From an uncultured Armatimonadota bacterium (GTDB lineage Bacteria > Armatimonadota > Armatimonadia > Armatimonadales > Armatimonadaceae), in the NCBI GenBank assembly GCA_903910385.1, contig CAIVZM010000072.1, positions 1-46,761 on the forward strand: a stretch of DNA of 46,761 bases. Direction: 5' to 3'. A program made the position numbers and the translations under genes. Below are positions 16,504 to 30,948 of the stretch, one piece after another. The notes under the pieces were generated by a model. The model saw nothing but the letters and a program-made list of their open reading frames with translations, made no database searches and was not told the DNA's origin. Numbering within the stretch: the first letter of the stretch is position 1; the number at the start of each line of letters is the position of its first letter.

Positions 16504-16549
16504 TAAATGATGTATAATTAAGCGACTAAATGATGTATAATTAAGCGAC
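16504..16549 (+). repeat. Tandem 23-bp duplication carrying two -10 boxes
   Basis: A 23-bp unit (16504-16526) is repeated exactly at 16527-16549. Each copy contains TATAAT (16513-16518 and 16536-16541) preceded by ATG. The duplication gives two possible start points about 23 bp apart, roughly two helical turns, downstream of the CRP-like site. Confidence 0.85.
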
Positions 16550-16619
16550 TCGGTAAGTAGCGGAAATCACACAATAGTAGTCAAATGCGCCACCGATAGA
16601 CACATCAGGAAACTCGTTC

Positions 16620-23360: not shown

Positions 23361-23402
23361 GTATATATGTCCATGTATATATGTCCATGTATATGTGTCT
23401 AT
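23361..23402 (+). repeat. Triple 14-bp tandem repeat upstream of GH13
   Basis: The 14-bp unit GTATATATGTCCAT occurs at 23361-23374 and 23375-23388. A third copy with two changes lies at 23389-23402. It ends 25 bp before the amylase start, in the promoter region. It could be an operator array or phase-variable spacer; 14 bp is not a whole helical turn. Confidence 0.8.
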
Positions 23403-23410
23403 GAAAATGG

Positions 23411-28656: not shown

Positions 28657-29604
28657 TCAGGGATTGGGAGCGGGAGTCGGTTCTATTTTATCGTGCGAAG
28701 CTGCAGGATGAGCGGAATTATAGACATCCTTTAACCGCTTTACCGAGACATGCGTGTAGATTTGTGTCGTCGCCAGATCGGCGTGACCGAGAAGTTCCTG
28801 AACCACTCTCAGATCCGCACCGTGATCTAGTAAATGGGTTGCAAAAGAATGGCGCAACGTGTGCGGAGTCACCTTATGGCTTTCGGAAACCGTCAGGCAA
28901 TACTTATCGAATAACCGACGCACCCCTCTATCGGACAAGCGACCGCCAAACCGATTGAGAAAAAGAGCGGGAACGGGTTTCTTCGCGGCAGACTGCTGGA
29001 TCGGACGACCCTTTTCCTGATACTCCTTCAGAGCGGCGACGGCGGAGCGTCCCAGCAGAGCGATTCGTTCCTTTCCGCCTTTTCCCTGCCGGACACGAAC
29101 AGTCCCCTCTTCTAAAGAGGTAAATGACACATCAGTCGTCTCCAGGGCAACGAGTTCGCCCGCCCGCAGACCAGAAGCGTAAAGCGTCTCCAGGATCGCC
29201 CGATCCCGCAAGCCATCTGGCGTAGATGAATCTGGCGCGTAGAGCAAGGCAGTCACGGCATCCTCACCAATAGCTTTTGGTAGAGCGGGCTTCTGGCGAG
29301 GCGTCACGATATTTTGCGCCGGAGAACGCTCTACCGCGCCACGTCGCACCAAAAACCGGAAAAACGCCCGCAGAGATGCCGCCTTTCGAGCGACGCTGGC
29401 GCGGGCTAGCCCTTTATCCGTCGTTAAATCCGCTATAAAGGCTCGAAGAAGCGGCGCATCCACCCTACCCGGCGTCAGAACCCCTTGCTCTCGCCCGAAT
29501 GCGGCAAATTGCGCAAGATCTTCGGCGTAAGCGCGAATCGTATGTATGCTCGCCCCTCGAACCGATGCGAGATGTTCGGTAAAACGATCGATCCATTCTT
29601 CCAT
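28657..29604 (-). CDS. Tyrosine recombinase XerC/XerD
   Basis: Site-specific recombinase of 315 residues, the size of chromosomal Xer proteins. It has an N-terminal SAM-like core-binding domain (1-95) and a catalytic domain with Arg147 (SGLRAGE), Lys in RQGKGGKER, His248 and Arg251 (HTLRHSFATHLLDHG), His274 (LLGHADL) and nucleophile Tyr283 (IYTHV). It probably resolves chromosome dimers at dif. XerC and XerD cannot be told apart here, and no second copy is in view. ATG 29604 is the start nearest the conserved MEEWIDRF. The frame extends upstream to 29664 into a 40-bp palindrome, so longer starts (29652, 29649) are possible. The C-terminal ~20 residues (SAHPAASHDKIEPTPAPNP) are a Pro-rich tail. 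Confidence 0.9.
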   Translation of the reverse strand: MEEWIDRFTEHLASVRGASIHTIRAYAEDLAQFAAFGREQGVLTPGRVDAPLLRAFIADLTTDKGLARASVARKAASLRAFFRFLVRRGAVERSPAQNIVTPRQKPALPKAIGEDAVTALLYAPDSSTPDGLRDRAILETLYASGLRAGELVALETTDVSFTSLEEGTVRVRQGKGGKERIALLGRSAVAALKEYQEKGRPIQQSAAKKPVPALFLNRFGGRLSDRGVRRLFDKYCLTVSESHKVTPHTLRHSFATHLLDHGADLRVVQELLGHADLATTQIYTHVSVKRLKDVYNSAHPAASHDKIEPTPAPNP

Positions 29605-29637
29605 AGCTTCTCTATTAGACCTCTTGCCTAAGTCCGC

Positions 29638-29677
29638 ATCTTGCCCCATCATACGCCAGCGCATGATGGGGCAAGAT
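29638..29677. repeat. 40-bp palindrome at the 5' end of the Xer gene
   Basis: Perfect 15-bp arms (ATCTTGCCCCATCAT and its complement) flank a 10-nt centre that itself pairs CGC with GCG. There is no T tract on either strand, so it is not an intrinsic terminator. It lies 34 bp upstream of the chosen Xer start, where an operator or leader hairpin would act. Confidence 0.85.
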
Positions 29678-29890: not shown

Positions 29891-30451
29891 TTAGTTGGCA
29901 GTCTCAGTAACCCCACCGACATCCGTGAAAATCGGCAGATAATCACGCCAGACGGCGTGCTTGGTTCCTGCCACATACTTATTCAGCGAGATATAAGGCG
30001 TGTAGCGCGGACGCCGGGGCGTTCGCACCAGTTTCATGCCGACCTTTTCCGCCAGCTTATCGCCTTTTTTCGTGTTGCAGCGCCGACAACATGCCACCAG
30101 ATTATCCCACGACATCGGTCCGCCCATTCGCTTGGGAATGACATGGTCGATTGTCAAATCTTTGCCGGTCGCGCCACAATACTGGCACGTATAATTGTCT
30201 CGTGCAAAAATGGAACGACGGGACAACCGGAGTTCCGGCAACGGTCGCCGGACATGACTCCGCAACTTGACCACCGACGGCGACGAAAACTGCTCGCCCT
30301 CGGCGGAGCGCATAGTTCCCGACTCCTGCGCCATTTCGCGCTCATGCAGAACATCGGCCTTGCCCAGATACACCAGAACAATAGCCCGACGCAAGTTACA
30401 GACGTTCAGCGGCTCGTAGTCGCTGTTCAGAACCAAAACTTCCTGGCTCAT
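29891..30451 (-). CDS. HNH endonuclease-domain protein
   Basis: 186 residues. The N-terminal part (SQEVLVLNSDYEPLNVCNLRRAIVLVYLGKADVL) and the HNH core define a conserved family found in cyanobacteria, Deinococcus and others. The zinc cysteines are C89/C92 (CQYC) and C122/C125 (CRRC), with Asp102-His103 (TIDHVIP) and Asn117 forming the beta-beta-metal site. It is cytoplasmic. Its role is unknown; DNA repair or a housekeeping nuclease is suggested by its breadth. ATG 30451 has GGGAGGG at an ideal distance, and the upstream frame to 30517 is not conserved. A terminator and a structured RNA lie upstream on the same strand, so it may have a riboregulated leader. Confidence 0.85.
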   Translation of the reverse strand: MSQEVLVLNSDYEPLNVCNLRRAIVLVYLGKADVLHEREMAQESGTMRSAEGEQFSSPSVVKLRSHVRRPLPELRLSRRSIFARDNYTCQYCGATGKDLTIDHVIPKRMGGPMSWDNLVACCRRCNTKKGDKLAEKVGMKLVRTPRRPRYTPYISLNKYVAGTKHAVWRDYLPIFTDVGGVTETAN

Positions 30452-30538
30452 TCGCCCTCCCAGCCCCTTTCCGCAAAACCCAATCCCACCCGTCGCTTTC
30501 ACACAGCGGGCGGACAATTTCGACTAACGCTCTCCTCC

Positions 30539-30559
30539 GAGTCATCCTTTCCATGACTC
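30539..30559 (-). other. Leader hairpin upstream of HNH gene
   Basis: GAGTCAT-GGAAAGG-ATGACTC on the minus strand, a 7-bp perfect stem exposing a purine-rich loop. It lies just downstream of the structured-RNA terminator and about 90 nt before the HNH start. Confidence 0.4.
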
Positions 30560-30562
30560 TAA

Positions 30563-30818
30563 TAAAAAGACCCGCTTGCCAGTGAATGGCAGGCGGGTCT
30601 TTAAACAAAACCGTTCGCGCACGTGTATAGTACGTGCCGATGAACGAGTAGCGCTCTACATAGCAACGCCGCCCTTCTCCCACTTAGAGGAGAACCCTGC
30701 CCCGGAAGATGGCATGACCATTTCTCCGACCCCGACGTCTGCCGGTTGCAGACATTCGGTCTCCGTTGCGGATATTCAGGAAAGCGGTTCAAACTAGGCA
30801 TGACGTACTCGCGTCTCT
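30563..30818 (-). ncRNA. Candidate ~256-nt structured RNA
   Basis: A consensus promoter and a strong intrinsic terminator bracket this minus-strand stretch. Hand folding gives a closing helix: AGTACG (30809-30804) with CGTACT (30634-30629), TGCC (30800-30797) with GGCA (30638-30635), and TGAACCGC (30791-30784) partly with GTTCA (30645-30641). A bubble of ~14 and ~8 nt follows, then GCAACG (30769-30764) with CGTTGC (30668-30663) enclosing three hairpins (GTCTGC/GCAGAC, a CCAT/ATGG stem, TTCTCC/GGAGAA). The outline recalls 6S RNA (closing stem, bubble) but the branched top does not. SRP, RNase P and tmRNA signatures are absent. A 66-codon frame inside (30801-30601) has no ribosome site or family likeness. 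It could instead be an attenuating leader of the HNH gene. Confidence 0.55.
30566..30602. terminator. Strong terminator of the structured RNA
   Basis: A 16-bp stem (AAAGACCCGCTTGCCA / TGGCAGGCGGGTCTTT, one G-T pair) with a 5-nt loop. In the minus direction it is followed by TTTATTAG, extending a U tract of five. It would end the RNA transcribed from 30818. Confidence 0.88.
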
Positions 30819-30824
30819 ATCGCT

Positions 30825-30853
30825 ATGATAGCCCACTTCGCTAAACTCGTCAA
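30825..30853 (-). promoter_or_regulatory. Sigma-70-type promoter of the structured RNA
   Basis: On the minus strand TTGACG (30853-30848), a 17-bp spacer and TATCAT (30830-30825). The start is expected near 30818. It is the best -35/-10 pair in the window. Confidence 0.72.
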
Positions 30854-30907: not shown

Positions 30908-30948
30908 ACAATGAGACGCAACAGGAATATCCCGTTGCGTCTCATTGT
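30908..30948. terminator. Long hairpin after trxB
   Basis: A 15-bp perfect stem (ACAATGAGACGCAAC / GTTGCGTCTCATTGT) with an 11-nt loop, 46 bp beyond the trxB stop. It is followed on the minus strand by TTCGG, so there is little U tract; it probably serves as 3' protection or a weak terminator for the operon that ends with trxB. Confidence 0.6.

Follow-up and report, generated by a model that had tools for sequence, protein, structure and literature searches.

The tna operon carries a TnaC-type arrest leader peptide. The IshB-like architecture, in which a PLMP domain is joined to an HNH domain in the absence of RuvC, was reportedly defined by Altae-Tran et al. in 2021. The name IshB is used in PMC12477157. 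The terminal hairpins of the omega RNA are contacted by the PLMP domain in both IsrB and IscB, and those of IsrB contain the Shine-Dalgarno sequence (PMC9581776, PMC9640706). Experiments on pil1 of Streptococcus gallolyticus demonstrated that leader peptides ending within or near a hairpin let ribosomes block this hairpin and raise transcription (PMC3894217). Among the papers searched, none joined an HNH endonuclease with a leader peptide and attenuation, and none joined Armatimonadota with a leader peptide.

The window, i.e., the whole stretch of 46,761 nucleotides analysed here, carries on its minus strand a candidate flanked by trxB on one side and the gene of an HNH nuclease on the other, both in the same orientation. 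Its sequence and that of its relatives indicate that the candidate is probably the HNH gene's own 5′ leader, working as a translation-dependent transcription attenuator. The promoter scan confirmed the sigma-70 promoter TTGACG-17-TATCAT proposed in an earlier sequence-only reading of this DNA; it lies at 30853 to 30825 (minus strand), agrees with the consensus at 10 of 12 positions and has an equivalent site in relatives. Three promoter-like sites were found in the 650-base region of the window, against 0.5 expected in shuffles. Downstream, the ORF list contains a leader peptide ORF of 66 codons on the minus strand (30801-30601; ATG...VHRHVLYTCANGFV-TAA), the internal frame already mentioned in that reading. 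The codons of its conserved motif HRHVLYTC (30619..30642, minus strand), located by the leader alignment and codon comparison, are covered by a weak local hairpin, GCACGT/ACGTGC (30608..30655, minus strand; folding z -1.4), which is only partly kept in relatives. The leader stop codon TAA (30603-30601) is located at the base of an intrinsic terminator (30602-30566, minus strand). This is the 16-bp terminator of the earlier reading, a near-perfect inverted repeat (94% complementary) followed by a T-run and folding at -25.2 kcal/mol (z -7.95), and it is further identified by equivalents in relatives and by the stop-to-stem geometry. A 5′ untranslated stretch without a promoter-like site (30452..30565, minus strand; promoter scan) separates it from the HNH gene (29891..30451, minus strand), which encodes 186 aa. 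A gene for a xerC-type tyrosine recombinase (28657..29664, minus strand; taken from the ORF list and identified by inspection) comes after HNH. The xerC-type gene follows HNH in the window and five relatives; in several Fimbriimonadia, the gene after HNH is murA-like instead. Elsewhere in the window, a 19-bp hairpin at 30908-30948 is presumably the trxB terminator, and short tandem repeats were observed at 16504-16550 and 23361-23403 (a perfect 23-mer in two copies and GTATATATGTCCAT in three).

A nucleotide search with the candidate RNA in 60 relatives returned only the candidate itself. As no homologue was found among them at the DNA level, the downstream HNH gene was used as the anchor. Orthologues of it are present in all 19 of the order's genomes and in 174 of the 201 that make up the phylum sample; among the named records, the HNH-locus group belongs to Armatimonadota, and the nearest members are Armatimonadaceae and Capsulimonas relatives. 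The comparison set comprised 88 distinct loci, namely the window and 87 other Armatimonadota loci. The succession of promoter, short ORF, intrinsic terminator and PLMP-HNH gene recurs in both the order and the phylum. Near-consensus promoters (10-12 of 12 positions) occupied the corresponding site in 57 of the 88 loci, window included, and terminators with a score of at least 24 stood on the gene strand in 53 loci versus 7 on the other strand. Between the terminator and the HNH start, a gap often shorter than 40 nt, no sigma-70-like site was found in any of the 88 loci. The genes farther upstream show no relationship to one another (59 clusters in 81 loci), while the short ORF stays beside HNH. 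Because of this phylum-wide synteny and the lack of a promoter-like site past the terminator, the second option of the sequence-only reading, a leader for the HNH gene, is well supported. Preservation of the unit beside HNH across most of Armatimonadota suggests that ribosomes on the small ORF may decide nuclease production. In loci L006, L007, L012, L113 and L114, the leader ORF starts 7-8 nt past the -10 box, which gives their transcripts a leaderless appearance.

The C-terminus of the window ORF, VHRHVLYTCANGFV, ranked first among 1241 stop-anchored window peptides compared with the leaders of relatives (score 19.0, the next being 6.75; z 6.0), the reference consisting of four leaders from three other genera. 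Removal of the nucleotide-similar relatives L006 and L007 lowered it to rank 2, tied (z 3.9). For the window ORF, this comparison replaced a general leader-peptide profile HMM, which separated its seeds well in a six-frame search and scored the window ORF at no more than 5.9 bits. When close relatives were compared pairwise, 100, 109 and 174 substitutions fell on codon positions 1, 2 and 3, counts which are not fully independent since two of the pairs share one sequence. The HRH motif shows synonymous codon variation between genera. The Armatimonadia and Chthonomonadia leaders ending at the terminator have the common motif (R/H)xLRxxEDG(L/F)CxxRH; conservation is restricted to such a short motif, and the leaders range between about 38 and 70 codons in length. 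Histidine accounts for 11.6% of the final 30 residues in 27 leaders, compared with 1.5% in other frames and 1.8% in long ORFs, and His codons are enriched about 6-fold near the leader end. The genus of the window is represented by one genome, and we therefore infer selection on the peptide in the window itself from other genera. Overall, the 66-codon frame behaves as a conserved peptide, with the protein-like substitution that the sequence-only reading had set against its own proposal of an independent RNA. The predicted coding function of the leader ORF and the read-through layout are both well supported.

The leader stop codon lies 0-2 nt from the first terminator stem pair in 14 of 20 motif-bearing leaders (0 nt in the window). 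Of 51 other genes in these sequences that have a strong terminator, none ends within 2 nt of the stem; their typical distance is 10-30 nt. The motif core is found at a median of 56 nt upstream of the terminator stem, and the conserved motif precedes the leader stop by some 12-20 residues. This distance, about one tunnel length, suggests a nascent-peptide effect. In the proposed attenuator, RNA polymerase would start at the strong promoter, and ribosomes would translate the short leader ORF. With no ribosome at the ORF end, the hairpin would form and transcription would stop, producing an RNA of roughly 256 nt. A ribosome staying at the ORF end during polymerase passage would mask the 5′ arm of the terminator and allow read-through into the HNH gene. 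Its presence there could be due to tight coupling or to the nascent peptide slowing translation termination. From this arrangement we infer that read-through is regulated, that the ribosome is its agent and that some signal is answered to.

The leader stop lies inside the terminator in L026 and L069 and beyond it in Fimbriimonadia, so one mechanism may not fit all lineages. In one genus (L017-L020), the leader frame extends across the terminator and ends in a TAA directly adjoining the HNH ATG. The Fimbriimonadia loci (L085-L118) possess a WxDTIIR motif whose position relative to the terminator base is nearly fixed (-42 to -46 nt); in L106, for example, the motif site is about 121 nt upstream of HNH. 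This leader motif lacks His, and the frame runs past the terminator. The WxDTIIR region is conserved at the DNA level as well (GACACGATAATACG), and the DNA coding for it could be a promoter element instead. The Fimbriimonadia leaders differ, and they may not have the mechanism in common with the others. L086, filed as a Methanoregulaceae archaeon, has an HNH locus very similar to that of Fimbriimonadaceae L085; the record is probably mis-binned.

A conserved small protein encoded ahead of a leaky terminator would look similar to an attenuator. The short ORF could be an ordinary gene whose His/Cys-rich product acts alone, e.g., in metal binding or as an HNH partner, the terminator ending its message and HNH being expressed through leaky read-through. 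This alternative is consistent with the strong promoter and terminator framing the ORF, with selection on the peptide and with its His/Arg-rich composition. However, conservation limited to a short motif in leaders of such variable length, a stop codon abutting the terminator stem as in none of the 51 ordinary genes, and an ORF remaining next to HNH while the upstream genes change make it unlikely.

The HNH protein itself offers another alternative to attenuation by ribosomes. It matched the Pfam families HNH_5 (60.3 bits) and HNH (57.2 bits); the domain search found no RuvC domain in it, and defence-system models matched mainly the HNH domain. Its AlphaFold model was aligned to the IscB PLMP and Cas9 HNH domains. 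Model residues 3-70 aligned with the HfmIscB PLMP (Z 8.0, rmsd 1.4, 49 residues) and also with TbaIscB, DtIsrB and OgeuIscB, the PLMP Z values being 8.0, 7.0 and 6.2; values below 8 may reflect common arrangements, but the hits to several IscB/IsrB chains coincide at one N-terminal position. By the model, the N-terminal domain is PLMP-like. Together with the domain search, the model points to a standalone IshB-like protein (PLMP and HNH, no RuvC), present in 174 of the 201 Armatimonadota genomes. Since PLMP contacts omega-RNA terminal hairpins in IsrB and IscB (PMC9581776, PMC9640706), a rival reading deserves attention in which the HNH protein itself binds the leader RNA or the hairpin at its end, either for autogenous control or because the RNA is a remnant or precursor of an omega-RNA guide. 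A GC-rich hairpin does precede the HNH start in most loci. Against such binding, Rfam at the gathering score returned only two unrelated tRNAs in the window and 20 relatives, no fold outside the terminator was conserved across the aligned relatives, and the protein lacks RuvC. The Rfam models of HEARO/omega RNA gave no match, either at the gathering score or, within the candidate region, with E allowed to reach 10. The probability of this alternative is low. Just as low is that of a broader combination, in which an arrest-peptide attenuator would act phylum-wide on the IshB-like PLMP-HNH nuclease and couple the state of the ribosome to a Cas9/IscB-related nuclease, the same leader hairpin being bound by the PLMP domain, so that it could plausibly be a remnant or precursor of the omega RNA found at this position in IscB/IsrB.

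The roughly 6-fold excess of His codons near the leader end would fit classical amino-acid attenuation, with histidyl-tRNA sensed through these codons and an alternative antiterminator helix. However, pairing between the 5′ arm of the terminator and the leader did not exceed that in shuffled controls (mean z -0.01, 24 loci), so an antiterminator of the hisL type is not seen. Furthermore, no his genes were seen downstream, where the recurring cases are xerC or murA, and the Fimbriimonadia leaders carry their other motif without His. Classical attenuation of this kind is very unlikely.

The sequence-only reading had described a structured RNA with a 6S-like lower half, possibly of a new class. 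As to structure, the whole transcript (about 256 nt) is indeed more stably folded than its shuffles (z -4.15), but once the terminator is removed, the remaining leader reaches only z -1.77; most of the folding signal comes from the terminator. Base pairs of the leader are kept in 45-52% and those of the terminator in 86-100% of cases in the aligned relatives, although leader RNAs of relatives align poorly and weak covariation could escape. The two helices folded by hand in that reading, AGTACG/CGTACT and GCAACG/CGTTGC, can form on paper yet occur in neither the MFE nor the centroid structure, and both are inconsistently kept in the aligned relatives. The Rfam check it had called for gave, at E up to 10 in the candidate region, only chance-level matches driven by the terminator, e.g., sX13 with 26 bits against a cut-off of 50. 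The 6S resemblance found no backing, 6S RNA (RF00013) having no match in the window or in its own genome. Matches to 6S occur at other loci in three sister-family genomes (L021, L022 and L023) and in 0 of 12 genomes of the window's family, where 6S is lost or too divergent. A new RNA class is not supported, given that no fold is conserved, Rfam is silent and the 66-codon frame is peptide-like. A stand-alone structured non-coding RNA, be it a new class or a 6S analogue, is highly improbable despite its own promoter and terminator and the folding of the whole RNA, as the signal is mostly that of the terminator, leader pairs are poorly kept, codon-position bias and peptide rank speak for coding, and 6S lies elsewhere in relatives.

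If the translation-dependent attenuator is real, it would provide a handle on the role of widespread, uncharacterised PLMP-HNH nucleases, and a simple attenuator design without an antiterminator would join the known set. Like hisL-type attenuators, the unit has a His-rich leader peptide before a terminator; it differs from them in that neither his genes downstream nor an alternative antiterminator helix were seen. The HEARO/omega RNAs of IscB/IsrB resemble it as RNAs of about 200-300 nt upstream of a PLMP gene (with HNH in IscB). In contrast to them, the leader here has no Rfam match and no conserved fold, its gene is without RuvC, and the presence of this HNH gene in 174 of 201 genomes is unlike a mobile element. 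The layout of TnaC-type and drug-sensing arrest leaders, such as the Bacillus tylosin leader (PMC6851288), is alike: a short ORF with a motif about one tunnel length before the halt site controls the next gene. The Armatimonadota unit differs in having no detectable antiterminator or known inducer and in being followed by an HNH nuclease gene rather than a catabolic or resistance gene. In the pil1 locus of S. gallolyticus (PMC3894217), too, a premature intrinsic terminator comes after the ORF of a leader peptide, whose stop codon falls in the hairpin or near it. Unlike pil1, which is switched by the number of GCAGA repeats, the window shows no such repeat, and it is the peptide motif and the stop position that are conserved here across genera.
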